DNA of 64,000 bases from Actinobacteria bacterium IMCC26103. GTDB taxonomy: Bacteria; Actinomycetota; Actinomycetes; Nanopelagicales; Nanopelagicaceae. The notes under the pieces were generated by a model, which was not told where the DNA came from, did no database searches, and saw nothing but the letters and a program-made list of their open reading frames with translations. Positions 2,857 through 25,191 of this stretch are shown piece by piece. A program made the position numbers and the translations under genes. Position 1 is the stretch's first letter; each line of letters opens with the position of its first letter. The stretch is from NCBI GenBank assembly GCA_002284875.1, contig CP015604.1:310001-374000 (forward strand), given 5' to 3'.

Positions 2857-3651
2857 TTAGCGAACTGGCTTAAGTGCTTGGTCTTTCATATCGACTGTCA
2901 TAGCACCCGTCATGATTGCAACCACATCGTTCATGCTGTGTGTCTTTGGAGTTACAACTGCAGCGCGCTTTCCGAGGCGTTGTACCTGGATGCGATCTGC
3001 AACTTCAAAGACCTGGGGCATATTGTGTGAAATCAAGATAACTGGCATACCGCGATCGCGAAGTGATTCAATCAACTTTAGTACCTGACGTGATTCACGA
3101 ACACCAAGGGCTGCAGTTGGCTCATCCAGAATAATCAACTTCTGACCGAAAGCAGCGGCGCGTGCAACAGCAACTGCTTGGCGCTGTCCACCAGATAATG
3201 TTTCAACTGCCTGTGAGATATTTTGGATTGTTCCGATACCAAGGGCAGAGATATGTTCCTTCGCACCTTTACGCATTCCAGAGCCATCTAGCATGCGCAA
3301 GACAGATCCAAGTGGGCCTTTCTTACGAATCTCGCGACCGAGGTAAAGGTTTGAGGCGATATCAAGTGCTGGGGCAACAGCGAGTGTCTGGTACACAGTT
3401 TCAATACCGGCATGGCGGCCATCTTGCGGACGCTTAAATGACACTTGTGCACCATCGAGAATGATCTGACCTTCATCAGGAATTTCAGCCCCTGACAGAC
3501 ATTTAATTAGAGTTGATTTACCAGCTCCGTTATCGCCGACTACTGCGAGAACTTCGCCAGGAAATAGCTCGAGATCTGCGCCATCTAGCGCGACAACGCG
3601 ACCGTAGTTCTTGGTTACTCCAACTGCTTGCAGGATAGGGGCTTTACTCAT
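2857..3651 (-). CDS. Sugar ABC transporter ATP-binding protein (single domain, RbsA/FrcA-like)
   Basis: Walker A (GDNGAGKST), the signature motif (LSGGQRQ) and Walker B (LIILDEPTAAL) are all present, followed by the switch His in ISHNM. With about 264 aa it is a single nucleotide-binding domain, unlike the roughly 500-aa duplicated RbsA/XylG proteins. It matches the FrcA-type ATPases of fructose/ribose-family importers, which work as homodimers. The start is set at ATG 3651 (MSKAP), which overlaps the permease stop as ATGA and indicates translational coupling; a longer reading from 3672 would add seven unlikely residues. It would energise uptake of the carbohydrate captured by the lipoprotein at 4846-5913. 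Confidence 0.9.
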   Translation of the reverse strand: MSKAPILQAVGVTKNYGRVVALDGADLELFPGEVLAVVGDNGAGKSTLIKCLSGAEIPDEGQIILDGAQVSFKRPQDGRHAGIETVYQTLAVAPALDIASNLYLGREIRKKGPLGSVLRMLDGSGMRKGAKEHISALGIGTIQNISQAVETLSGGQRQAVAVARAAAFGQKLIILDEPTAALGVRESRQVLKLIESLRDRGMPVILISHNMPQVFEVADRIQVQRLGKRAAVVTPKTHSMNDVVAIMTGAMTVDMKDQALKPVR

Positions 3652-4691
3652 TTGCGTGCCTTTCTGATCCACTGGTCAACTGAGACCGCGAAGATAATTA
3701 GAAGTCCGATTGCAAGGAGCTGGTAGTAAAGATCTACTCCAGCAAGAGTTAGGCCGTTACGGAAAACACCCACGATGATCGCTCCGATTAGTGAACCGAA
3801 GATTGTGCCGCGACCACCGAAGAGTGAGGTACCGCCGATAACCACCGCAGTGATGGAATCTAAGTTCAGGTCGCTGCCAGTATTCGGGCTGGCCACGGTC
3901 ACGCGTCCGATCACGATCCAAGCAGAGAGTGCGAAGATCAAACCTGCAACCATGTAAACACCCATTAATACTCGGTTAACTGAGATACCTGCAAGACGGG
4001 CAGCGTCGATATCATCGCCAACTGCGTAAACGTGGCGGCCCCAACCGGTGTAGCGAAGTACGAACGCCAAAAATGAGTACATCGCAATCACGAATACGAC
4101 ACCTGTTGTAATTCGGAAAGGTCCGATATTTACATAGTGGCCAAGAGTTAAGAGGAATGGATCCATCTCAATTGATGGAACAGTTCCCTTTGTTAGCGTA
4201 AGGGTTAGCGCGAGGAATACGTTATAAGTTCCCAAGGTAACGATAAATGGTGGCAACTTAATTTTTGTAACCAAGAAGCCGTTAATTGCCCCGCCGAGCA
4301 TTCCAACTGCGAGCCCAATTGGGAAGGCTAGCCAGATTGACCAGCCAGCAGGGTGGCCTTCACCTGGAGTTCCTTGAACCAACTTCGCCATAGTCATAGA
4401 TGCAAAGACTGCAATTGCCCCGCATGAAAGATCGATACCGGCAGTCAGAATAATGAGAGTTTGTCCGGCGGCTACAGCACCAACAATTGCAACTTGCTGC
4501 AAGATAAGTGAAAAGTTAGATGGTGTTAAGAAGTTTTCATTGAAAAAGCTAAAGGTGATTGAGGCAAAGAGAAGTACGAAGGCTGAGCTAAGCCATGGGT
4601 ATTTATGGAGAGTCGCCTGGATTTTCTGGCTTAGTGATGCGCGATCTTGAAACTCCGCCGCTGCATCGTATGTGGCCGTATCTTGACTCAC
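3648..4691 (-). CDS. Sugar ABC transporter permease (RbsC/FrcC-like)
   Basis: 347 aa, highly hydrophobic, with roughly nine or ten membrane segments. It has family hallmarks such as LTAGIDLSCGAI near residue 82 and the late VVIGGTSLFGGRGTIFGSLIGA coupling region of branched-chain/ribose-type permeases (BPD_transp_2). A cytoplasmic N-terminal tail of about 35 residues is present. It forms the membrane channel with the single-domain ATPase downstream. It follows the binding-protein gene, separated by a strong hairpin at 4770-4814 that probably lowers permease expression relative to the binding protein. The transported sugar cannot be read from the permease itself. Confidence 0.92.
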   Translation of the reverse strand: MSQDTATYDAAAEFQDRASLSQKIQATLHKYPWLSSAFVLLFASITFSFFNENFLTPSNFSLILQQVAIVGAVAAGQTLIILTAGIDLSCGAIAVFASMTMAKLVQGTPGEGHPAGWSIWLAFPIGLAVGMLGGAINGFLVTKIKLPPFIVTLGTYNVFLALTLTLTKGTVPSIEMDPFLLTLGHYVNIGPFRITTGVVFVIAMYSFLAFVLRYTGWGRHVYAVGDDIDAARLAGISVNRVLMGVYMVAGLIFALSAWIVIGRVTVASPNTGSDLNLDSITAVVIGGTSLFGGRGTIFGSLIGAIIVGVFRNGLTLAGVDLYYQLLAIGLLIIFAVSVDQWIRKARK

Positions 4692-4845: not shown

Positions 4846-5913
4846 TTAACCCCAAGCGTTTGCTAGACCGTATTCAGTTGTCTCTGATGGGACACCCTCT
4901 TGTGGGTCATCAGTGATCAACTTGACACCTGTGTTGAAGAAGTCAAGGCCCTCTGAATTAGATGGCTTTGTACCATTCTTCACGATGTCGTAGATAGCTT
5001 GAACACCAAGGTCAGCCATCAATAGTGGGTACTGCTGTGAAGTCGCGTTGATGCAACCTGACTTAACAGCGCCGATACCGGCTCCACCACCGTCAACAGA
5101 AACCATTGCATCGATCTTGACGCCTGCAGCCTTAGCAGCAGCACAAGCTCCGATAGCAGTTGGTTCGTTGATTGTGTAAACAACGTTGATCTTCTTGTTC
5201 TTAGCAAGAAGCTTCTCGAGACCGGTTCGTCCACCGTCTTCGTTAGCTCCAGTTGCTACGTTTCCAACGATCTCGTAGTCGCCACCTGAGTACTTGCCAG
5301 TCTTGGCTTCGTCTCCCATGACCTTAGGATCCTTAACATCGATTCCCATACCATCTAGGAAGCCGTTGTCGCGGCAGTAGTCAACAGACACAATACGATC
5401 ATCGAAGATGTCGAGAAGTGCGATTGTTGCTTTCTTGCCAGCAAGCTTCTTAGCTGTCCACTGACCGATTAGACGACCAGCTTCGCAGTTATCTGTTGCG
5501 AATGTGATGTCAACAATGTCGGCAGGATCTGGTGGTGTATCTAGGGCAATTACGAATAGACCTGCATCGCGGGCCTTAGTGATTGCTGCGTTAACTTCTG
5601 TTGATACTGGAACAATCAAAATACCAGCGTGCTTTGCAGATACAGCGTTTTCGATCGCTGCGATCTGACCTGCGTAATCTGATTCATCCTTACCAGATGA
5701 AACAGTTAGCTCTACGCCAAGTGACTCTGCCTTAGCAGTAGCACCCTTGATCATTGCAACGAAGAATGGGTTTGACTGATCTTTGGTAATTAGTGAAACA
5801 GCAACTTTGTCGCCGCTTCCACTATCGCTCTTTGAACATGCAGAGAGCACAAGCATTGACGCTGCGGCTACAGCAACAATTGCTGCAGTGCGGCGTGAGA
5901 AAAGCTTTGCCAT
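4846..5913 (-). CDS. Sugar-binding lipoprotein of ABC importer (ribose-type periplasmic binding protein)
   Basis: 355 aa. The N-terminus is a lipoprotein signal: basic MAKLFSRR, a hydrophobic core and lipobox LSAC, giving a lipid-anchored Cys near residue 26. The mature part starts with VAVSLITKDQSNPFFVAMIKG, the characteristic first strand of Peripla_BP_4 (PF13407) proteins that bind ribose, fructose, inositol, apiose and related sugars. A strong ribosome-binding site (AGGAGGAAAT) lies upstream of the ATG. It is the first gene of the importer operon. Ligand identity is unknown. The adjacent D-apionate-like enzymes make apiose or another branched or furanose sugar a reasonable candidate. Confidence 0.92.
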   Translation of the reverse strand: MAKLFSRRTAAIVAVAAASMLVLSACSKSDSGSGDKVAVSLITKDQSNPFFVAMIKGATAKAESLGVELTVSSGKDESDYAGQIAAIENAVSAKHAGILIVPVSTEVNAAITKARDAGLFVIALDTPPDPADIVDITFATDNCEAGRLIGQWTAKKLAGKKATIALLDIFDDRIVSVDYCRDNGFLDGMGIDVKDPKVMGDEAKTGKYSGGDYEIVGNVATGANEDGGRTGLEKLLAKNKKINVVYTINEPTAIGACAAAKAAGVKIDAMVSVDGGGAGIGAVKSGCINATSQQYPLLMADLGVQAIYDIVKNGTKPSNSEGLDFFNTGVKLITDDPQEGVPSETTEYGLANAWG

Positions 5914-6048
5914 ATGTATTTCCTCCTATAGGTGGGTCAATCGCTGCCGATACTACATAGGGACGACCCTCAATAAAAGGGTTTTTAGGCGAAAATTGGA
6001 TCGTTACCCAACCGTTACTCGGTGCAGAAAGAGCGTTATTTTGCGGCT
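5914..6048. promoter_or_regulatory. Leader region of the ABC importer operon
   Basis: This 135-bp gap separates the stop of the ApnL-like gene (higher coordinates, same strand) from the start of the binding-protein gene. It carries that gene's Shine-Dalgarno sequence (AGGAGG, about 5922-5927) and must contain its promoter. A short GC-flanked stem ACCCT-N-AGGGT (about 5969-5988) lies in the middle and could end the upstream transcript. No clear operator could be assigned by eye. Confidence 0.4.
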
Positions 6049-7830
6049 TTAGCCCCGTATCAGGGCGATCTCAAAGGGGGCCAGGGTCAATGGGAAATCG
6101 GCCGAAATGGGAGTTGTCTCAGCATATGACCACCAGTCCATGATTTGGCTGGCGCGGTCACATTCATCGCCGCGCAAACTCTGAATGGATTTATAGCCGG
6201 CCAAGACCTTGGCGGTGATTTCAAGGGACCAAGGGCGGAGGGAAGCCACAAGAATTCTTTTCGTCTCTCTATTTTCAAATGCTACCCACGAATTATCAAG
6301 TGAAGTCGCAATTGTTATTTGATGGGAGTGATGTGCGCCAAGGGCCGAAAGCGCATGAAATGTTGGAGAAAACTTTGTAGCACCGTTTTGCGAATAAATA
6401 ACTCCGGATTGACCAAATAGTTCGTGCCAACTTCCAGAGAATGCACCGGCGCTCGCAAGCGCAAAGATGGAACCAAGTGTCCAAGCTGCGCCTTCTATAG
6501 TTCTAATACGAGATGCCGCATCTAAATTTGCAAAATTAATTCGCTCATCTCGCGAATGCCCAGTCTCAGGATTCCCACGAGTTGAAAAGGTAATCGGTGA
6601 GATAAAAACCTGTGGAGCTAAATACTTTTGTGCAAACTCAATTGACTCACGCTGGGTGTATAAAGTTTTAAAGATAGTTTCGGTATCTGCCGAATGCACC
6701 GTTGGCACCATCGAATATGAAACCGAGCTTCCAAATTCATATTTATTGCGGTGTAGATCAACTAGGTAAGCATCACTTCCTGGAATGAAAGAGCTAAGCG
6801 ATTCATTCTTTGGTAGGTCAGTTGCTTCAACAATTTCGCGGCCTTCGCGCTGAATTAATATCCGCGAACCGGCAGGAACTCTTTGGCTTAACTTTGTAAC
6901 TTCAGCTTGCAATGCAGCGCCGCCTTTAGATGAGAGCAGAGCCGCCTCCAAGATAAGCCCGCTAGATGAAGTAGTCGCAATCTTCTGGGCGGTAAGTGAC
7001 TCCTCATTTACTCGCAAATGATCGATATCGAGTAAAACCATTGCTTTTTCCAGGTCATCGGGGGATAACAAAGGCTCGGTATTAAATTGCAGACCGATAC
7101 TTGGCAGAGCTTCAATCTCGCGCACCACGATCTTTGCTGGGTCTGTAGCAGCACCACTTGGCGCGCCAACTTCAAATTTAATACTTTGCTTCCAGATGCT
7201 GCCCGCACTTGTTACAAATGGACGCGGTTCGCTTAACGACCCGCTATAGATTTTATAAGTGTTATCAGTCCAGTTACGTTGATCTTCCGCTTCTAGAACT
7301 TTTCCAGTTGAAGTTGCCTTAATAAAGCGTTGGTCGGGTGCCACAAAGTGCATCTCATTTGCTGCAGGAAATAAACCTTGGGTGACTCCATCTATTACGC
7401 GCTGCGGTGAAATATCTTGCAGAAGCTTATAAGTATTTCCAGAAGAGTTAACTGTTGATCCCATCCAGTCGCCGCTATGGAGACATAGACAAATTCCCCA
7501 ACGATTAACTGAATATTCGGCTAAACCTTTTAATTGATAGTCAACTGAAAAAGTATTATCTGTTGTGAGTGTAATTATGGTTTGTGCCTCTAGCGCACCA
7601 ACAAAAGTATCTGAAATCGTAACTATGCAATCCGCGCCATTTATTTTTACATCTTCTGTGTGGCTATCCGCAACAAGAGTTGACCAATCCCACGGTCTAA
7701 TCGCGGTGTAGAGCAGATCAATTAGCTGGGTACCTTTATAAGTGATGTTTCGCGCTGCAGCTTCTGCTAAGTCTAAAGTGAAATCTCCATGTTCTACCCG
7801 CGATGTATCGGGCCAGTGATTTGTACTCAC
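6049..7830 (-). CDS. D-apionate lactonase-like protein (ApnL family, putative)
   Basis: 593 aa with no signal peptide or membrane segment. The recognisable block is around residues 180-205, EAEDQRNWTDNTYKIYSG, followed by PRPF. I associate this pattern with D-apionolactonase (ApnL) of D-apiose catabolism, which opens D-apionolactone to D-apionate. A preceding WGICLCLHSGDWMG and a C-terminal all-beta part are also visible. It is the last gene of an operon with SDR, TIM-barrel and ApnO-like genes (4-nt ATGA overlap with the SDR gene) and next to a sugar importer, which supports sugar-lactone hydrolysis. Exact substrate is uncertain; assignment is from memory of family motifs, not a search. Confidence 0.55.
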   Translation of the reverse strand: MSTNHWPDTSRVEHGDFTLDLAEAAARNITYKGTQLIDLLYTAIRPWDWSTLVADSHTEDVKINGADCIVTISDTFVGALEAQTIITLTTDNTFSVDYQLKGLAEYSVNRWGICLCLHSGDWMGSTVNSSGNTYKLLQDISPQRVIDGVTQGLFPAANEMHFVAPDQRFIKATSTGKVLEAEDQRNWTDNTYKIYSGSLSEPRPFVTSAGSIWKQSIKFEVGAPSGAATDPAKIVVREIEALPSIGLQFNTEPLLSPDDLEKAMVLLDIDHLRVNEESLTAQKIATTSSSGLILEAALLSSKGGAALQAEVTKLSQRVPAGSRILIQREGREIVEATDLPKNESLSSFIPGSDAYLVDLHRNKYEFGSSVSYSMVPTVHSADTETIFKTLYTQRESIEFAQKYLAPQVFISPITFSTRGNPETGHSRDERINFANLDAASRIRTIEGAAWTLGSIFALASAGAFSGSWHELFGQSGVIYSQNGATKFSPTFHALSALGAHHSHQITIATSLDNSWVAFENRETKRILVASLRPWSLEITAKVLAGYKSIQSLRGDECDRASQIMDWWSYAETTPISADFPLTLAPFEIALIRG

Positions 7831-8543
7831 CGCGCAGTCATTCCGCCATCGACTGCGTAAGAAGCGCCAGTTGCAAATGATGAATCAGTCGATACCAACC
7901 AATTAACTATTCCGATCAAATCACGCGGATCTCCCATACGACCAAGTGGTGTGCGGCGAATTAAATCTGGACCTTTTTCAGGATCATCCCAAATCTTCTT
8001 AATAAGAGGTGTTGACATAGTTCCGGGAACAACCACGTTAGAGCGCACACCATCTTCTTTATAATCGGCGGCGATTATGCGAGATAGGCCCATCATCCCT
8101 GCCTTGGATGCTCCGTATGCGGTGTAGCCAGCGCCTTCCATAGTTATCCCAGTAGGCGAGCCGATTAGAACAACTGAGCCGCGGCCGGATTTAACTAAAA
8201 ATGGCATCGCGTATTTAACAGATAGAAATGCGCCAGTGAGATTGATATCAATCGTGCGCCGCCACGTATCTAATGTGACCTCGCCAATTTTCGAATCACT
8301 GCCGACTAATTGCACACCAGCTGCAACGATTATGGCATCTAGCTTTTCGATCTTTTTAAAAGCTTCCTTGACCGAATTTTCATCGCTTAAATCAACGCTA
8401 ATAAATTTAAAGCTTTCATCTGCAGGTTTAACAAAATCTAGGTTGTAGACCGTTGCCCCATCTTCTAGCAAGCCTGTTGCTAAAGCAGAACCAATCCCAC
8501 CAGAACCGCCGGTAATAGCAACGTGATATCCGCTTAGCTTCAT
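7827..8543 (-). CDS. Short-chain dehydrogenase/reductase (SDR)
   Basis: 238 aa, classical SDR length. It has the NAD(P)-binding motif TGGSGGIG near residue 11, the catalytic YTAYGASKAG (Tyr-x3-Lys) near residue 150 with upstream Ser in VLIGSPTG, and the C-terminal SFATGASYAVDGGM typical of the family. An Asp after the second strand (YNLDF) favours NAD over NADP. It overlaps both neighbours by 4 nt, so it is translated as part of the operon. It probably oxidises or reduces a hydroxyl of the carbohydrate acid or sugar handled here; the specific reaction cannot be read from sequence. Confidence 0.88.
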   Translation of the reverse strand: MKLSGYHVAITGGSGGIGSALATGLLEDGATVYNLDFVKPADESFKFISVDLSDENSVKEAFKKIEKLDAIIVAAGVQLVGSDSKIGEVTLDTWRRTIDINLTGAFLSVKYAMPFLVKSGRGSVVLIGSPTGITMEGAGYTAYGASKAGMMGLSRIIAADYKEDGVRSNVVVPGTMSTPLIKKIWDDPEKGPDLIRRTPLGRMGDPRDLIGIVNWLVSTDSSFATGASYAVDGGMTAR

Positions 8544-9358
8544 ACTTTCAATCCTAGCGATTTACGTAAGAAGGAAACACTTTCTGTAGCCCAACTATCT
8601 TCCAACGCCACTGTCTCTGCGTAACTTTCTTGGCGCGGGGTCCATATTTCAATTACTGCAGTGATATCGCGCTTAGTTCCTCCAACAGATTCGATAACTG
8701 CAGCAACATCTAAGCGACCCTGCCCAAGTGCGGTGCCACGCACCGTAAATCCCATCTGACCATTTGTGCGAACGATTTCAAAATCCTTCAAATGCACATT
8801 AATTGCCCGTGGGGCTAACGCTGGAATAACGGTGTTAGGCGCTTCTACCGCTCCTAAAGAATTAACAGTGTCTAAGCAGATACCAACCCAATCAGCGCCA
8901 ACGCGATCGATAATCTCGTTAAATTGTGCGCAAGTTAAGCGATCATGATTTTCGATTGCTAATTTAATATTTGCTGCCTTAAATTTTGCGCCAAATGGTT
9001 TTAAGAGATCGCAAATCTCAGCCATATCTGGTTCGTGGCCCTTGCTATCAATTACTACGCGCAATAGTGGTGATCCCAATATTTGTGCGATTTTTAAGAA
9101 GCGCTCAATATTTTTGGCTTTAATACCGCGCGTGCCAACTTCTAGAGCTATCGAATAACTATCGGCAGCTGCCTTTAATTTGTACAGCTCATCATCAGCT
9201 AAATGCCCAATAGGTAAGTTATCGGCGATTTGCAGCACATCAGCGCCAAGGACTCGCGCCCGTTCCAATAATTCAAATGCGTTCATAACCACCGGGTGAT
9301 CGGCTTCGATTCCGCCGATCGCCCAAGGAAAGGTAAAGCTAGAAACGCCTAGTTTCAT
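8540..9358 (-). CDS. Xylose isomerase-like TIM-barrel sugar isomerase/epimerase
   Basis: 272 aa of the AP_endonuc_2 fold. The metal-site pattern is visible: the Glu of VEVGTRG-type strands, LAIENHD (Glu and His), CLDTVNSLG (Asp), NVHLKDFEI (His) and VIEIWTP (Glu) in order. Relatives include sugar and keto-sugar isomerases and epimerases and dehydratases such as IolE/IolH; D-apiose isomerase also belongs to this broad fold to my knowledge. It sits between the ApnO-like and SDR genes (9-nt gap and 4-nt overlap). A role in isomerising or epimerising the imported carbohydrate or an intermediate is inference. Confidence 0.8.
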   Translation of the reverse strand: MKLGVSSFTFPWAIGGIEADHPVVMNAFELLERARVLGADVLQIADNLPIGHLADDELYKLKAAADSYSIALEVGTRGIKAKNIERFLKIAQILGSPLLRVVIDSKGHEPDMAEICDLLKPFGAKFKAANIKLAIENHDRLTCAQFNEIIDRVGADWVGICLDTVNSLGAVEAPNTVIPALAPRAINVHLKDFEIVRTNGQMGFTVRGTALGQGRLDVAAVIESVGGTKRDITAVIEIWTPRQESYAETVALEDSWATESVSFLRKSLGLKV

Positions 9359-9366
9359 CTTGGGAT

Positions 9367-10212
9367 TTACTTATCTCCACCGGTGATTTGTTTAACGCTA
9401 GCGAGCACATTCTCTGGCTCAAAGATTGAAGCCCAATCATCACGGAAGAGTGAACCTTGCGCGTTCTTTAGCGCCATCAAAGCGCCATCAGACAACTTCC
9501 AATTTAGCTCTTCAAATAAGAGCGCGATGCTGATCTGAAGGTGTCCCATACAGAAATCTTTTGCAGCAGCCTCTGGTACTCCGAGATCAATAACTTTCTG
9601 CAGACCTTGGGTAATTACTTCTACACAACCATTAATTAGGGTTTCGCTAAGCGCGGGCTCTAGCAGCGCCATTTGCTGCACGGTGATGCGGTGGCTGGCG
9701 CTAATTGGCGCAAACATTTCAGTGGCAATGGTTTCAACTAAATCTGCTTCTTCTTCGGTGCCCCATGCGATAGCGAAAACAAGTGCTTGAGTCGCAAGTC
9801 CGCCGCCCCAATAATCGCGGCGCGCAGCAGGATCAGTCTCACCCAACAAACTAAATACTGGTGGATGCGTTGGATGGCAGACGAAACAACTTATATCCTT
9901 GCGCTTTTTTACACGGCTAGCCGCAATAGCAGCCGGATCTAAAAAGAGAATCTTTGTTCCAGGATCTAGCTTTGGGACTACTTCATCTGAAATTTGTCGA
10001 ACTAAAGCATCTGGAGTTGTGAAAATTACAACATCGGTGCCTTTCAGGGCATCATCTAGATCCATAACTTCTAAACCAGCTTCGCGAATGCGCGCTTGTC
10101 CGGCTTCAGATTTTTCAACGAAACGAAGTTGGTACTTCTTGGTTTCAAGAAGTGGTTTGGTAATTCGATTACCCATCTTCCCGCCGGCGCCCAAAATCGT
10201 TACAACAGTCAT
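9367..10212 (-). CDS. D-apionate oxidoisomerase-like dehydrogenase (ApnO family, putative)
   Basis: 281 aa. An N-terminal Rossmann motif, VTILGAGGKMGNRI, is followed by a distinctive CHPTHPPVF segment (about residues 108-116), then ETDPAARRDYWGGG. The C-terminal helical domain has ASHRITVQQMALLEPALSET and a late LFRDDWASIFEPE. This is the 6-phosphogluconate-dehydrogenase-C-like family that includes D-apionate oxidoisomerase, an NAD enzyme that oxidises D-apionate with migration of a hydroxymethyl group to 3-oxo-isoapionate. It is the first gene of a four-gene operon ending with the ApnL-like gene; the pairing supports the call. Other dehydrogenases share the fold, so function is probable, not certain. 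Confidence 0.6.
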   Translation of the reverse strand: MTVVTILGAGGKMGNRITKPLLETKKYQLRFVEKSEAGQARIREAGLEVMDLDDALKGTDVVIFTTPDALVRQISDEVVPKLDPGTKILFLDPAAIAASRVKKRKDISCFVCHPTHPPVFSLLGETDPAARRDYWGGGLATQALVFAIAWGTEEEADLVETIATEMFAPISASHRITVQQMALLEPALSETLINGCVEVITQGLQKVIDLGVPEAAAKDFCMGHLQISIALLFEELNWKLSDGALMALKNAQGSLFRDDWASIFEPENVLASVKQITGGDK

Positions 10213-10289: not shown

Positions 10290-11975
10290 GTGCCAGATTC
10301 AGCTACTAAAGACTTTGCTAATAAATATGTAATTGGCGTTGATTACGGAACTCTTTCCGGTCGCGCACTTCTGGTTCGAGTCTCTGATGGCGCCGAAATT
10401 GCAACTTCAGTTTATGAATATCCACACGCAGTAATTGAAGAAACGCTGCCAACATCAGGTGCCAAACTTCCACCTGATTGGGCGCTGCAAGTTCCAGCAG
10501 ATTATGTTGATGTTCTCAAAGTTACCGTTCCTGCAGCCTTAAAAGAATCTGGGATTGATCCAGCATCGGTTATCGGAATAACTACAGATTTCACCGCCTG
10601 CACAGTTTTGCCCGTTAAAGCAGATGGCACACCACTTTGCGAACTACCGGAATTTTCTAAGAACCCACATGCCTTTGTGAAACTATGGAAGCACCATTCC
10701 GCGCAACCACATGCGGATCGAATTACTGATCTTGCGCACTCACGAAAGGAGCCATGGATTTCGCGTTACGGAGGGAAAATTTCATCGGAATGGGAATTTG
10801 CTAAAGCGCTGCAAGTTCTGGAAGATGCCCCTGAAATTTATCAAGCGATGGATAAATGGGTGGAAGCAGCTGACTGGATTATCTGGCAGCTCTGCGGAAA
10901 ATATGTGCGAAATATTTGTACCGCTGGATATAAAGGTATTTATCAAGATGGAAAGTATCCAAGTAAGGAATACCTAGCCGCGCTTAATCCTAAATTTGAA
11001 AACTTCATCTCTGAAAAGCTAGAACATGAAATTGGTCAGCTAGGCGCAGTTGCCGGAACTTTAAGCGCAGAAGCAGCAGCTTGGACTGGACTAAACGAAG
11101 GTATTGCAGTTGCAGTTGGAAACGTTGATGCGCACGTAACTTCAGCTGCTGCAAATGCAGTTAACCCAGGACAGATGGTTGCCATCATGGGTACATCTAC
11201 TTGCCATGTAATGGTTTCGGAGAAATTTGCTGAAGTACCTGGCATGTGTGGAGTCGTCGATGGCGGAATTATCGATGGCGCACTTGGCTATGAAGCAGGC
11301 CAATCAGGCGTTGGCGATATCTTCGGCTGGTTTGCTAATAATTACACACCCGCTGAATACACCGCAGCAGCCGCAGCTAAAGGCGTAGATATACATACCT
11401 ATCTATCTGATTTAGCTAGCGCGCAACCAGTTGGCGCACATGGTTTAGTCGCACTCGATTGGCAGAGCGGCAACCGATCTACCTTGGTAGATCACCAGTT
11501 ATCAGGGCTGATCATGGGCCTAACGCTTTCCACTAAACCTGAGGAAATTTACCGAGCCATCGTTGAATCAACTGCCTATGGTGCACGCAAGATCGTGCAG
11601 ACCTTTAATGAATCTGGTGTACCGGTAAAAGAGTTCATCGCTGCCGGTGGGCTAATCAAAAATAGATTTGTAATGCAGATCTATGCAGATGTATTGGATA
11701 TGCCGATCACAATTATTAAATCAGCCCAAGGTCCCGCACTTGGTTCTGCGATTCACGCAGCCGTTGCTGCCGGTGCCTATAAGGATGTACAGACTGCTTC
11801 AGCGGCGATGGGTGGAGTTGCGCCAGAGCGCTACCAACCAATTGCCGCTAACGTTGCGGTCTATAACGATCTCTATACGCACTACAACAATCTTTATGAA
11901 AGCTTTGGGCACAATGGTGCAATGCATTCACTGCGCGCGATCCGCGATCGCGCCCTTACAGGATCGGCAAAATAA
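10290..11975 (+). CDS. araB: L-ribulokinase
   Basis: 561 aa, the length expected for AraB and longer than most FGGY kinases. It opens with VIGVDYGTLSGRALLV, the AraB-type phosphate loop, and has the AVGNVDAHVTSA and MGTSTCHVM adenosine-site region plus the late FIAAGGLIKNRFVMQIYADVL block. It phosphorylates L-ribulose to L-ribulose 5-phosphate. The start is a GTG at 10290; an ATG at 10328 is out of frame. It overlaps the next gene by one base (TAATG), forming an araBD unit. No L-arabinose isomerase gene is present in the window, so the source of L-ribulose is unclear. Confidence 0.88.
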   Translation: MPDSATKDFANKYVIGVDYGTLSGRALLVRVSDGAEIATSVYEYPHAVIEETLPTSGAKLPPDWALQVPADYVDVLKVTVPAALKESGIDPASVIGITTDFTACTVLPVKADGTPLCELPEFSKNPHAFVKLWKHHSAQPHADRITDLAHSRKEPWISRYGGKISSEWEFAKALQVLEDAPEIYQAMDKWVEAADWIIWQLCGKYVRNICTAGYKGIYQDGKYPSKEYLAALNPKFENFISEKLEHEIGQLGAVAGTLSAEAAAWTGLNEGIAVAVGNVDAHVTSAAANAVNPGQMVAIMGTSTCHVMVSEKFAEVPGMCGVVDGGIIDGALGYEAGQSGVGDIFGWFANNYTPAEYTAAAAAKGVDIHTYLSDLASAQPVGAHGLVALDWQSGNRSTLVDHQLSGLIMGLTLSTKPEEIYRAIVESTAYGARKIVQTFNESGVPVKEFIAAGGLIKNRFVMQIYADVLDMPITIIKSAQGPALGSAIHAAVAAGAYKDVQTASAAMGGVAPERYQPIAANVAVYNDLYTHYNNLYESFGHNGAMHSLRAIRDRALTGSAK

Positions 11976-12637
11976 TGGGTGAAAAGAAAAATTTACAAAG
12001 CAAAGTCTGCAAATTAAATATTGACCTGCAGCGATATGGGCTAGTTGCATGGACTGCCGGCAACGTTTCTGAACGTATGGCTGATGGAAAAAGTTTTATG
12101 ATCAAACCAAGTGGCGTTAGCTATGAAGATTTAGTTCCATCTCAGATGATTATCTGTGATCTTGATGGAAAAGTTCTCGAAGGTGAACTCTCCCCTTCTA
12201 GCGACACTTTTACCCATGCCTATATCTACCGCCATATGCCAGAAGTCGGCGGCGTCGTTCATACACATTCAAATTACGCAGCAGCTTGGAGCGCAATACA
12301 TAGCGCCATTCCTTGCGCGCTAACTGCGATGGCTGATGAATTCGGTGGCGAAATTCCACTTGGCCCATTTGCGCTTATTGGTAATGATGAAATCGGTAAA
12401 GGTGTGGTTCAAACCCTTACGGGACACCGATCTTCAGCGGTAATCATGAAAAATCACGGAGTTTTCGCAATCGGTAAAGATGCCACCGCCGCAGTTAAAT
12501 CTGCGGTTATGTGCGAAGACGTTGCAAAGACAACTTGGATCGCAAAGACGCTGGGTAATCTGCAATTACTTGATCAAGCCAGCATCGATAAGTTGTATGA
12601 CCGCTATCAAAATATCTATGGGCAACGCGGTAATTAA
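11975..12637 (+). CDS. araD: L-ribulose-5-phosphate 4-epimerase
   Basis: 220 aa class II aldolase/epimerase family. Visible elements are TAGNVSERM near residue 24, KPSGVSYEDL, then SSDTFTHAYIYR, and the metal-binding VVHTHSNYA pair of His residues plus the later KNHGVFAIG His. This matches AraD rather than fuculose-phosphate aldolase because of length and the SSDTFTHAYIY segment (substrate Thr and acid/base region). It converts L-ribulose-5-P to D-xylulose-5-P for the pentose phosphate pathway. It is translationally coupled to araB through a TAATG junction. Confidence 0.87.
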   Translation: MGEKKNLQSKVCKLNIDLQRYGLVAWTAGNVSERMADGKSFMIKPSGVSYEDLVPSQMIICDLDGKVLEGELSPSSDTFTHAYIYRHMPEVGGVVHTHSNYAAAWSAIHSAIPCALTAMADEFGGEIPLGPFALIGNDEIGKGVVQTLTGHRSSAVIMKNHGVFAIGKDATAAVKSAVMCEDVAKTTWIAKTLGNLQLLDQASIDKLYDRYQNIYGQRGN

Positions 12638-13461: not shown

Positions 13462-14778
13462 TTAAGTAACCTTTAATTTAAAGGCGCCTGCTGCGATTCC
13501 CGCAAACTCTGCAGCCCCTGTCGCCCCAGCCTCTGTTGCATCTGAAACTCGGTAACTTCCAAACTGTTTCTCTTTGGCGTAAGCAATAACTGGATTCTTA
13601 ATCCAGCCACCTGCAATTACAACGTTCTGTGCTTTACCGGTGTATTTTTCAATTAGCGAGATCATCTGCGCTGAGTCATCTACTAAATGTTCAACAGTTG
13701 CGCGAAATAGCGCAGCAGGTGAAACGGCGTCATCTAAGTTGGTAACAGATAGTCCATGGTAATCATTTACAACGCGCATCGCACTTGCGTTTGGATCAAT
13801 GGCAAGTGCTGCCTTACCAAGTGCGATCTTCTCTTCGCGTGTAGATACTCCGACTAGCGAACAGGCGCGCTCCAGAGTTAACCCGGTTGGCAGCGCGCCA
13901 AGCAAGGTGTAGTGATCTGCAATTACCGAACAACTCAAACCAACATTGGCCGCCGCTAATTCGGCGATTGCATCGCGTGTTAAGGGAGCTTTAAAAGTTC
14001 GAAGTAACGCTTCTGCAGTTCCCATTGAATCAAAAAGTGAGCCTTCATTTATCGCGCCGCAGTAATACGCAGCAGTGAAATGGTCGTGGCCGGCAATTGT
14101 TATTACTGCGCCTCTTAAAACTTCAGGTGCTTGGTTATTTACAACTCCGATTGGTTCACCGGCGACTACAAGGCGGGCCAAGAAGTCTTTTCCGCCACCA
14201 ACTAAAGCAATCGCTTCTTCCCATGGTTTGCGGGCTTCGACATCAAAGAAACCAGTGCGACTGACTAACGAAAGTTCATTAACTGGTTCGGCACCTAAAC
14301 AGTAAGCCACCCATTCAGGCGCTGATAGAAAGTACTTTGCCTTCTTAGATTCTGGATAATTTTTATTTAGCCAGAGCGTTTTGGAAATTGTTACGATCTC
14401 ATTTAACAAAGCGCCAGCACGTGCACGGAATTCAAAATCACCTAACTCTTTAATAATTGGCTCAGTTATTCCACGTGGATCATGCCAAGCTAAACCTGGA
14501 GATAGCGGTTTACCCGCCGCATCCATCAAGACGCCAGTTTCGCTAAATCCCGTAAAACCAATCGCTCGAACTTTCCCGCCAGCTAATTCAGCAGCCTTGG
14601 CAGCAACTGCGATGACGGTTTTAGCAAGCAGCAACATATCTATCTCGCTGAAATTCTTCTCATGTTTCCATGGAGTTGGTTCGGCGTATTCTGAAATAAC
14701 TTTCAAATTTAAATCAGTTGCGACCGCTTTAAGGCGTGATGTCCCAATATCTACGCCGATCAATATCTCTTGCGACAT
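13462..14778 (-). CDS. FGGY-family carbohydrate kinase
   Basis: 438 aa, shorter than the 480-510 aa of typical xylulose or glycerol kinases. It has the first phosphate motif LIGVDIGTSRLKAV, the substrate-domain GFTGFSETGVLMDAAGKPL with GLAWHDPRG, the mid VVIAGGWIKNPVIAYAKEK FGGY-C signature and SMGTAEALLR. It transfers phosphate from ATP to a sugar or polyol; xylulose-, gluconate- and fuculose-type substrates share these motifs, so the substrate is left open. It abuts manA on the same strand with no gap (stop of manA next to its start), suggesting co-transcription. Confidence 0.85.
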   Translation of the reverse strand: MSQEILIGVDIGTSRLKAVATDLNLKVISEYAEPTPWKHEKNFSEIDMLLLAKTVIAVAAKAAELAGGKVRAIGFTGFSETGVLMDAAGKPLSPGLAWHDPRGITEPIIKELGDFEFRARAGALLNEIVTISKTLWLNKNYPESKKAKYFLSAPEWVAYCLGAEPVNELSLVSRTGFFDVEARKPWEEAIALVGGGKDFLARLVVAGEPIGVVNNQAPEVLRGAVITIAGHDHFTAAYYCGAINEGSLFDSMGTAEALLRTFKAPLTRDAIAELAAANVGLSCSVIADHYTLLGALPTGLTLERACSLVGVSTREEKIALGKAALAIDPNASAMRVVNDYHGLSVTNLDDAVSPAALFRATVEHLVDDSAQMISLIEKYTGKAQNVVIAGGWIKNPVIAYAKEKQFGSYRVSDATEAGATGAAEFAGIAAGAFKLKVT

Positions 14779-23122: not shown

Positions 23123-23920
23123 TTAAAACTGGGAACGTATATCCCAAAGATCTTTAAAGACTGGATTAAATAAAGTACTCGCTAAGTATTTAACTCCATC
23201 AGAGCCACCGGTACCTGCTTTTTGCCCAATAGTGCGTTCTACCATTTTCACATGGCGATACCGCCATTCTTGCAATCCTTCATCGATATCCATTAACCGT
23301 TCACAAACCATCGCAGATTCGGGATCTTCACGGTGCACGGCAAGTAGCGCAACGATTACACGTGGATCGGATTGATAGTGCGTTGCTTTATCTCGGTTTA
23401 ATATTTCATCAGGGATTTTATGACCACGTTTGGCAAGGTAAGCAAGCGTTGAGTCCCAAATCGAATTACGAGATGAGATCTCTTTTATCTCGGCCTGTAC
23501 CGCAGGTGGTAGATGAGATGCCATTTTTGAATCGCGTCGCCCCAATAAAGCTTCTACTTTTCTAAATTGAGCAGATTGGAAACCACTGGATGAAGATAGA
23601 TATCCGCGGAAAGCGTTAAATTGCAGTGGTGTCATAGTTTCTAAAATATCTACCTGTGTGACACAAACTTTAAGTATGGTGCGAATTCTCCCCAGTATGG
23701 CCAAAGAACGATGGGTATCACCTGATTCGAGCGCTTTAGCCGCTTCATTAAATTCATGTATTAATTGCTTAAACCAGAGCTCATAACTTTGATGGATGAT
23801 GATAAAAAGCATCTCATCGTGTTCTGGGCCATCAGATAGCGGGGTTTGTAGCGAAAGCAACTTGTCAATTGCTAAATATGAATTGTAAGTAAGTGCAGAA
23901 TCGAATTCGCCGTTGCTCAA
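23123..23920 (-). CDS. kynA: Tryptophan 2,3-dioxygenase
   Basis: 265 aa, typical bacterial length. The haem/substrate motifs are present: LFIIIHQSYELWFKQLIHE near residue 50 (family HQ.YELWFKQ), FNAFRGYLSSSSGFQS in the middle and FNPVFKDLWDIRSQF at the end. It oxidises L-tryptophan to N-formylkynurenine, the first step of the kynurenine route. It is downstream of kynU with 4-nt overlap, forming a two-gene operon. A kynurenine formamidase gene (kynB) is not visible in the window. Confidence 0.93.
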   Translation of the reverse strand: MSNGEFDSALTYNSYLAIDKLLSLQTPLSDGPEHDEMLFIIIHQSYELWFKQLIHEFNEAAKALESGDTHRSLAILGRIRTILKVCVTQVDILETMTPLQFNAFRGYLSSSSGFQSAQFRKVEALLGRRDSKMASHLPPAVQAEIKEISSRNSIWDSTLAYLAKRGHKIPDEILNRDKATHYQSDPRVIVALLAVHREDPESAMVCERLMDIDEGLQEWRYRHVKMVERTIGQKAGTGGSDGVKYLASTLFNPVFKDLWDIRSQF

Positions 23921-25191
23921 GTGACTCTCGAATCAGTTGTTTTAATCTTCTCGTATTGACGTGTTGCGACTAGATCGCGAATGCGCGCAAATCCATCCCA
24001 TACTTCCACATAAGAAGTTGGAAGCGGTGCAATTGCAAGACGAATTGAATTGGGGGTTCGGTAGTCAGGAATAACATCAGCAAATTCGCGCAGCGCTACA
24101 CAGATTCGTGCAGCTTCCGGATGGCCGATTGAAATATGTCCGCCGCGTTCTTGTGGATTGCGCGATGTTAGTAAAGTAAATCCAAGTTCTGCCAGCCATG
24201 CATCGTAGAGTTGAATCATCATCTCAGTGCCAATGGCGGCCTTTTCTGAGATTGCACCAATGCCGGCTTCTTCGATCATCGTAAATGCGCTCTTAATGCA
24301 ACGCAATCCAATAAGTGAAGGGCTAGCGATTTGGAAGCCACGTATACCTGGTGCGCGTTCAAAGTCAGCGCCCATTGCAAATTGTTCACCTTGCGAGAAC
24401 CAACCTTGTATCGGAACTTGAAGTTCTGCTTGCACCCTCTTATTTACATATAACCAAGCTGGTGCACCAGGTCCAGAATTACCATATTTATAGGTGCAGC
24501 CAACTGCGATATCAACACCATTTTTATCAAAATCCATCTCGATCGCACCAACTGCGTGGCTGGCATCCCACAACATAAACGCGCCATGTTTACGAACTAA
24601 ATCGGTAAGTGACTTAATATCATTTCGCGCACCAGAGCGATATTGAATTACCTCTAAAGTAACTAGCGCCACATCATCGTTTAAATATGGTGCCAGAATT
24701 TCCGGTGTTATTCGTTCATGCTCGGCCGAACCGGCAGATTCGTTATCAATAATTACAAGCTTTAATCCAAACTGCTTGGCGATACCATCGAGGATGTAAC
24801 GATCTGTTGGAAAATTAGCGGCATCAGTAATAATGGTTTTCCGACCTGGCCGGGCATGAATTGCAGCGAGTGCTAGTTGATAGAAATTAACTGAAGTCGT
24901 GTCGCAAGCCAATACTTGTCCCGCGGCTGCGCCGAGTGTGGCGCGACCAATTAAATCCCCAGTTGGTTGAGCTTCATCTACCCAATGTCCCCATCCGGTT
25001 ACAACTTCAGGACCCCACTCATCTGTCATAAATGAGTTGACGGCAGAAATTGTCGAAAGTGGCAGCCGTCCTAGCGAATTGCCATCTAAATAACAGATAT
25101 TCGAATCGCCGATCACAAATTGAGAACGGAAACGAGCCAGCGGATCGCGAGCATCTAGATCAAGTGCAAACTGTCGGTCAGTGGCCTTCAT
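23917..25191 (-). CDS. kynU: Kynureninase
   Basis: 424 aa PLP enzyme. YLDGNSLGRLP opens the fold, FMLWDASHAVGAIEMD carries the PLP-contacting Asp/His pair, and DIAVGCTYKYGNSGPGAP holds the PLP Lys. The C-terminal GHISIGHPEA and PDYRTPNSIRLAIAPL are family hallmarks. It hydrolyses kynurenine to anthranilate and alanine. With kynA it gives a tryptophan-to-anthranilate route if formamidase activity is supplied elsewhere. The start is ATG 25191, 24 nt from the divergent ABC-F gene. Confidence 0.93.
   Translation of the reverse strand: MKATDRQFALDLDARDPLARFRSQFVIGDSNICYLDGNSLGRLPLSTISAVNSFMTDEWGPEVVTGWGHWVDEAQPTGDLIGRATLGAAAGQVLACDTTSVNFYQLALAAIHARPGRKTIITDAANFPTDRYILDGIAKQFGLKLVIIDNESAGSAEHERITPEILAPYLNDDVALVTLEVIQYRSGARNDIKSLTDLVRKHGAFMLWDASHAVGAIEMDFDKNGVDIAVGCTYKYGNSGPGAPAWLYVNKRVQAELQVPIQGWFSQGEQFAMGADFERAPGIRGFQIASPSLIGLRCIKSAFTMIEEAGIGAISEKAAIGTEMMIQLYDAWLAELGFTLLTSRNPQERGGHISIGHPEAARICVALREFADVIPDYRTPNSIRLAIAPLPTSYVEVWDGFARIRDLVATRQYEKIKTTDSRVT

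Follow-up and report, generated by a model that had tools for sequence, protein, structure and literature searches.

A conserved operon of Actinobacteria bacterium IMCC26103, probably for oxidative D-apiose breakdown, with a candidate TIM-barrel decarboxylase

We analysed a stretch of 64,000 nucleotides (the window; positions 310,001 to 374,000 of contig CP015604.1, G000:C1:310001-374000 in our handles, with G for genomes, C for contigs and L for loci) from the single-contig genome of Actinobacteria bacterium IMCC26103 (1,456,516 bases), and on its minus strand we found a four-gene operon core (6049-10212) that is reasonably likely to serve oxidative, non-phosphorylating breakdown of D-apiose. 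In the proposed pathway, a short-chain dehydrogenase/reductase (SDR) would convert apiose to apionolactone, an ApnL-like protein would open the lactone to give D-apionate, an ApnO-like enzyme would oxidise D-apionate and move its hydroxymethyl group to give 3-oxo-isoapionate, and a TIM-barrel protein, acting as a metal-dependent OiaC-type decarboxylase, would turn this product into CO2 and L-erythrulose. With such a TIM-barrel decarboxylase, the kinase OiaK and RuBisCO-like proteins (RLPs) would not be needed. We infer every substrate and product from gene identities, order, conservation, co-occurrence and co-deletion, which were observed. Judged from sequence, this conserved operon is probably functional in apiose/apionate breakdown and belongs to the TIM-decarboxylase type; an SDR would be its entry enzyme, its lactonase is divergent, and the lineage is new for such an operon.

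The first gene of the operon encodes the ApnO-like D-apionate oxidoisomerase (9367-10212) and is followed, after a gap of 8 bp, by the gene of a xylose-isomerase-like TIM barrel of the AP_endonuc_2 family (8540-9358), the proposed 3-oxo-isoapionate decarboxylase. The next gene, for an SDR with the adh_short_C2 domain (7827-8543), proposed as a D-apiose 1-dehydrogenase in place of ApsD, overlaps the TIM-barrel gene by 4 bp and the gene of the divergent ApnL-like lactonase (6049-7830) by another 4 bp. A first-pass annotation of this DNA had described ApnO-like and ApnL-like genes with an SDR and a TIM barrel beside a ribose-type importer. Its open reading frames were all found in place on the minus strand, and domain matches confirmed the placement and the families. 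The unbroken minus-strand run extends further than the part described there and comprises eight genes, the last of which encodes a GMC oxidoreductase.

The product of 9367-10212 has an NAD-binding N-terminus and matched PF16896 (PGDH_C) in Pfam with an E-value of 3.4e-48. It was 42.5% identical over 98% to a protein encoded on plasmid pBB1 of Cupriavidus necator N-1, which is the same as PDB chain 5t57_A over 278 aligned residues, except for the residues bordering the tag, and which we take to be the characterised ApnO. This full-length homology bears out the earlier assignment as an oxidoisomerase. On pBB1, an RLP gene and an OiaK homologue come after the apnO homologue. In the ApnO tree, the window protein was nested among apnO-type loci, on a long stem.

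To place the operon among other apnO loci, the ApnO alignment was compared with a genome collection, and the best 80 of 537 confirmed places were kept, so the counts that follow do not amount to a census. L035-L038, four of these 80, nearly duplicate the window and were excluded, which left 76 loci outside the genus, several of them cut off where their contig stops (the TIM-barrel gene is incomplete in L040 and L050). A homologue of the TIM barrel lay near apnO in 14 of these 76 loci, an RLP and/or OiaK homologue in 47, neither branch in 15 and both in none, with L063 (RLP and OiaK, and a TIM-barrel gene 8.4 kb off) counted as RLP/OiaK only. The exclusion of the two branches gave a Fisher p of 1.1e-7, uncorrected for kinship of the loci, and at least three switches between the two states were counted on the ApnO tree when rows with neither state were left out. 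The TIM-barrel gene was within 331 bp of apnO in 13 of the 14 TIM-type loci, with one gene between them in L071, and these loci span Chloroflexota, Bacteroidota, Verrucomicrobiota, Armatimonadota and others. A homologue of the glycoside hydrolase family 140 (GH140) apiosidase was present in three TIM-type loci (L042, L061 and L071) and in none of the 62 other loci, and the Pfam apiosidase domain, checked in L061 and L071, matched at 1e-120 or better, which links the TIM-type cluster to apiose by evidence separate from ApnO. The Pantoea At-9b plasmid carries genes for a dihydroxyacetone kinase (DHAK), triose-phosphate isomerase (TPI), TIM barrel and ApnO in a row, with rpiB and a transketolase gene nearby, and this is the set to be expected if the product of the TIM barrel is L-erythrulose.

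The absence of a 3-oxo-isoapionate kinase and of an apionate-type RLP, seen earlier in the neighbourhood, held for the whole genome. The OiaK-type kinase family (PF07005) had no match genome-wide, and PF00016 had one (L002:10098-11195), whose best model was an MtnW-type enolase at 208.7 bits (cut-off 409) and which scored 73.5 bits with the OiaX model (cut-off 700), short of every cut-off. We rejected this single RLP as the missing decarboxylase, since it is MtnW-like and lies near mtnA, whose match was over its cut-offs, and near an aldolase/SDR fusion. The first-pass annotation had left two alternatives, namely that the missing enzymes lie elsewhere or that proteins of the operon replace them. 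The latter is the better alternative: the TIM barrel takes the position of RLP/OiaK in 14 of the 76 loci without overlap, and the SDR is a likelier substitute for the first dehydrogenase than for the final enzymes. The window thus has an AP_endonuc_2 TIM barrel adjoining apnO, with neither an RLP nor OiaK, as in the OiaC-type route, and the TIM barrel most likely performs the decarboxylation without phosphorylation in their place. This mostly resolves the concern about missing enzymes, and the true gap is the L-erythrulose step. The non-phosphorylating branch of apionate breakdown, with ApnO, OiaC and an L-erythrulose kinase, has already been described, so the missing kinase and RLP alone do not support the new kind of breakdown that had been suggested. 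A xylose-isomerase-family decarboxylase route for D-apionate was reportedly presented by Carter et al. in 2018 and is said to be listed in MetaCyc.

Some further loci concern the same two branches. In two other genomes of the phylum (L124 and L125), apnO stands with RLP and OiaK homologues, which means that both decarboxylation branches exist in the phylum. A separate clade of TIM barrels occurs with DHAK and with no apnO directly alongside in L007:6213-11608, L009:7858-13613 and L063; the L007 and L009 clusters also contain a tripartite ATP-independent periplasmic (TRAP) transporter, an SDR and a split transketolase, and these clusters possibly serve another sugar-acid route. The surroundings of the MtnW-like RLP (L002:293-11195, G000:C1 at about 473-484 kb), in which it lies 3' of mtnA and the aldolase/SDR fusion and which include hydroxyacid dehydrogenases and an ABC transporter, perhaps form a methylthioribose or deoxyribose salvage variant. 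In the plasmid search with the TIM barrel, the matches on E. coli and Salmonella plasmids were about 29% identical and had an unrelated context.

The only model matched by the lactonase was NF049900 (NCBIfam ApnL, E 3.6e-23), and no Pfam family matched it. It is about 20% identical to rhizobial ApnL. In an alignment of 47 rows including the window protein, from which the fragments L037 and L070 (428 and 72 residues) were omitted, all 19 columns that were invariant across the family were kept in the window lactonase, among them E180, E182, D183, R185, W187, D189, K193 and Y195. The structure model (predicted local distance difference test (pLDDT) 88) resembled GH79, GH51 and GH30 barrels over residues 231-593 (best Z 24.1, root-mean-square deviation 3.9, 333 aligned). 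A cytosolic glycosidase was not favoured, because the strictly invariant acidic residues are N-terminal and Asp358 stands where 41 of the 47 rows have Glu. Sequence searches of the PDB gave just weak, chance-like matches for the lactonase and for the TIM barrel.

For the first step, the SDR most likely replaces ApsD as entry enzyme. No homologue of ApsD (Gfo/Idh/MocA) was found at 1e-8 in L035-L038, of which L036 covers 10 kb on each side of apnO, and none at 1e-4 in L121-L123 from other actinobacteria. The SDRs beside apnO in L121 and L122 are related to the window SDR. The window SDR was 43-44% identical to the SDRs of L121 and L122, and in a tree of 29 rows from the fetched loci these formed one group with the SDRs of the window genus (SH-aLRT 99); L123 had neither an SDR nor ApnL within the stretch seen. 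Among at least 5000 plasmid records, the ten listed matches of the SDR were 33-40% identical. An ApsD-like dehydrogenase was present in 9 of the 14 outside TIM-type loci.

The core is conserved between strains. The gene order was kept in L036 and L038, in which four-fold sites agreed with the window at about 35-60% in most genes and ApnO was 95-98% identical in amino acids; the lactonase, TIM barrel and SDR were conserved at 74-87% between strains with similar synonymous divergence. For L036, the four-fold sites of apnO agreed at 48%, and the amino-acid identity was 98% for ApnO, 87% for the SDR, 82% for the TIM barrel and 74% for the lactonase. Order and ApnO have therefore been kept despite synonymous divergence, which indicates that the genes are under selection and are not chance reading frames. 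The distribution is sparse: apnO orthologues were found in 4 of 37 searched genomes of the genus (some incomplete), as well as in L035 and L038, and an apnO match at 1e-30 was found in 7 of 396 genomes of the phylum, including the genome studied here. In the related genome G030, a single contig joins the binding-protein gene, across what is left of the lactonase gene (its last 99 codons), directly to the ROK gene, which means that a deletion (L142:9056-9553) took most of the lactonase gene, the SDR, TIM-barrel and apnO genes and the neighbouring araB and araD, and left the importer, the GMC oxidoreductase and an FGGY kinase. This deletion indicates that the core behaves as one unit, to which the importer is not tied.

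The importer genes follow the core on the minus strand and comprise a ribose-type sugar-binding lipoprotein (4846-5913, Peripla_BP_4), an ABC permease (3648-4691, BPD_transp_2) and an ABC ATPase with one nucleotide-binding domain (2857-3672, ABC_tran), and the GMC oxidoreductase (1340-2833, GMC_oxred) ends the run. Domain and NCBIfam matches gave a transporter of the ribose type, and the ATPase aligned only with the first 240 or so positions of two-domain sugar-transporter ATPase models. The binding-protein gene is flanked by gaps of 135 bp (lactonase side) and 154 bp (permease side), the permease and ATPase genes overlap by 25 bp, and 23 bp separate the ATPase and GMC genes. The motif GTAACnGTTnnGTAACGAT lies at window 6000-6018 on the minus strand, upstream of the binding-protein gene, changes little among relatives and is also found in G030, and it is a possible operator. 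Scanning for promoters and terminators yielded fewer sites than shuffled sequences did.

It is quite plausible, if somewhat short of probable, that two units lie here on one strand, the importer with the GMC oxidoreductase serving another sugar and the apn core relying on a different importer, and this would be compatible with an apiose function of the core. Besides the survival of importer and GMC gene without the core in G030, such a division is suggested by G031, in which GMC, ATPase, permease and binding protein stand together and are followed by a prolidase-like gene, and by the 135-bp gap with its conserved motif. Against it, the core and importer are adjacent in the relatives with contigs spanning the junction (L036, L038 and L148), and apnO clusters elsewhere also have ribose-type importers. 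Since importer and GMC gene both survive in G030, their link to the apn core is loose. The GMC oxidoreductase, which among solved structures comes nearest to glucose and fructose dehydrogenases and which has homologues of more than 65% identity in 7 of 61 genomes of the genus, was not favoured as an apiose oxidase, being retained in G030 without the core. It is linked to the transporter in G030 and G031 as well.

Several results weigh against a D-apiose function of the core. No DHAK-type L-erythrulose kinase (Dak1, PF02733) matched in the genome, and the same search was positive in 3 of 14 control genomes; there is one RpiB only, and the usual L-erythrulose steps are thus absent. The lactonase reached 82 bits with NF049900, for which the curated cut-off is 750 and rhizobial ApnL scores 987, so the earlier assignment as a D-apionate lactonase stands as remote ApnL homology with 19 of 19 invariant residues, and membership of the equivalog does not. 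The stem of the window ApnO is long (1.65 changes per column), and among the matches listed no relative outside the genus exceeds 48% identity to it. With its counterpart in the E. coli SE15 apiose cluster the binding protein shares 28% identity, and with a rhizobial counterpart beside apnO 26%, whereas these two counterparts share 48%. The TIM-type locus L051 also has a different kinase of the PF07005 family, upstream of apnO with a second PF16896 gene. The TIM barrel has the residues and fold of a sugar epimerase, and on the modelled structure it may have epimerase or isomerase chemistry.

The L-erythrulose step leads to genes outside the core. L-erythrulose may enter central metabolism through an FGGY kinase and the split transketolase of an upstream module, or through another of the six FGGY kinases of the genome. 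One of the six (13462-14778, minus strand, FGGY_N), a candidate only, is 23-26% identical to AplK-type kinases, is the kinase that G030 retained when the core was lost, and is present in 7 of 61 genomes of the genus. The upstream module (G000:C1:297744-301975, L003:745-4976), which ends 8.0 kb before the first base of the window, is an apparent operon of a split transketolase, an FGGY kinase and a RhaI/XylA-like isomerase, with no importer beside it, a clustered gene set resembling that of the non-oxidative apiose route. The two transketolase subunits share 44% and 39% identity with AptA and AptB of E. coli SE15, and the kinase of the module is 35% identical to AplK, lying outside the GlpK clade of the genus with no resolved grouping with AplK. 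According to PMC13001218, aplK, aptA and aptB were named for D-apiose degradation, and strains bearing the cluster grow on apiose. The same four kinds of gene adjoin pectin-degradation genes on a Streptomyces plasmid, with transketolases 58-59% identical. Close orthologues of the module kinase (83-85%) were found in G001 and G473, which with the genome itself makes 3 of 61 genomes of the genus; of these three, the two searched for apnO (G000 and G001) have it. Possibly both apiose routes are encoded here; alternatively, L-erythrulose may be drained by the upstream module as well. A more specific idea is that the apulose route (isomerase, kinase and split transketolase) and the oxidative route coexist in the streamlined 1.46-Mb genome of this freshwater actinobacterium and merge in an unreported way, the apulose-route kinase and transketolase draining L-erythrulose in place of a DHAK-type kinase, which we regard as doubtful.

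The upstream module also bears on a rather unlikely alternative, in which the core applies the same chemistry to another branched or linear aldose (e.g. D-hamamelose or an arabinose-derived acid) and apiose itself is handled by the non-oxidative module. The similarity of that module to AptA, AptB and AplK fits this alternative, as do the co-deletion of araB-araD with the core in G030, the divergence of the lactonase, the long ApnO stem and a binding protein that is not close to the apiose ones. On the other hand, core homologues outside the genus stand with ApsD-like and ApnL-like genes, and with GH140 in three loci, and the window lactonase keeps every invariant residue. The araB-araD pair (10290-12637, plus strand) is divergent from apnO and probably serves L-arabinose; we did not retain these genes as erythrulose enzymes, given the strong scores of araB with the ribulokinase model (798 bits, cut-off 583) and of araD with the L-ribulose-5-phosphate 4-epimerase model (344 bits, cut-off 251), and a lone araA elsewhere.

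A TIM barrel acting as sugar isomerase or epimerase, with decarboxylation left to an enzyme encoded elsewhere, seems quite improbable. The fold of the TIM barrel is that of D-tagatose 3-epimerase, with the metal-site residues kept, and no decarboxylase model matched it, but the genome has no OiaK and no OiaX-like RLP, and the TIM and RLP/OiaK branches strictly exclude each other across loci. In the alignment of 19 proteins, E136, D163, H189 and E237, which we take to be the metal ligands of such epimerases, were invariant. The structures nearest to the model (pLDDT 90.1) were the isomerase Art22 (Z 26.3) and D-tagatose 3-epimerase (Z 25.0, 2.5 Å, 242 aligned), a likeness that shows the fold of the modelled protein, not its reaction. 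The window proteins also matched no OiaC model in NCBIfam.

Compared with known systems, the core with its TIM-type branch is closest in layout to clusters already mentioned. It shares with the Pantoea At-9b type an ApnO beside an AP_endonuc_2 TIM barrel and no RLP or OiaK in the cluster, with TIM barrels 31% identical. However, the window has no DHAK-type kinase, its operon includes the SDR and the ApnL-like lactonase, and its TIM barrel belongs to another subgroup with ENHDR and LDTVNS motifs instead of ETYEQ and LDPAN. The actinobacterial loci L121 and L122, of the same class, contain DHAK, RpiB, TIM barrel, ApnO, SDR and ApnL genes (and TPI in L121) and resemble the window in having TIM, ApnO, SDR and ApnL-family genes together, but their ApnO is just 35% identical, their TIM barrel is of the Pantoea type, and DHAK and RpiB are in the cluster. 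The Pararhizobium qamdonense cluster (ApsD, ApnL, ApnO, OiaK and OiaX) has in common with the window an ApnO of 42% identity, an ApnL-family gene and a ribose-type importer alongside, whereas the window has no ApsD-like, OiaK or OiaX genes and the lactonases are highly diverged at the identity given above. An apn cluster with OiaK and 3-oxoisoapionate-4-phosphate decarboxylase goes with growth on apiose in PMC11747546. The non-oxidative route of E. coli SE15 has the same kinds of gene as the upstream module, which differs in lying outside the window, with no importer alongside and a kinase not firmly grouped with AplK.

These results correct the idea that an apnO operon without RLPs is incomplete, the neighbourhood statistics pointing to the TIM-barrel protein as an alternative branch across several phyla. 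They also point to apiose use by small aquatic actinobacteria, of which we found no report in the literature searched, and raise the sharp question of how a cell lacking the usual kinase makes use of L-erythrulose. The first-pass annotation had presumed feeding on plant or algal polysaccharide; direct feeding of this kind is not indicated, because no GH140 apiosidase was found in the genome. Farther along the window, at 23123-25191, two genes resemble, by eye alone and with no search run, those of tryptophan 2,3-dioxygenase and kynureninase.

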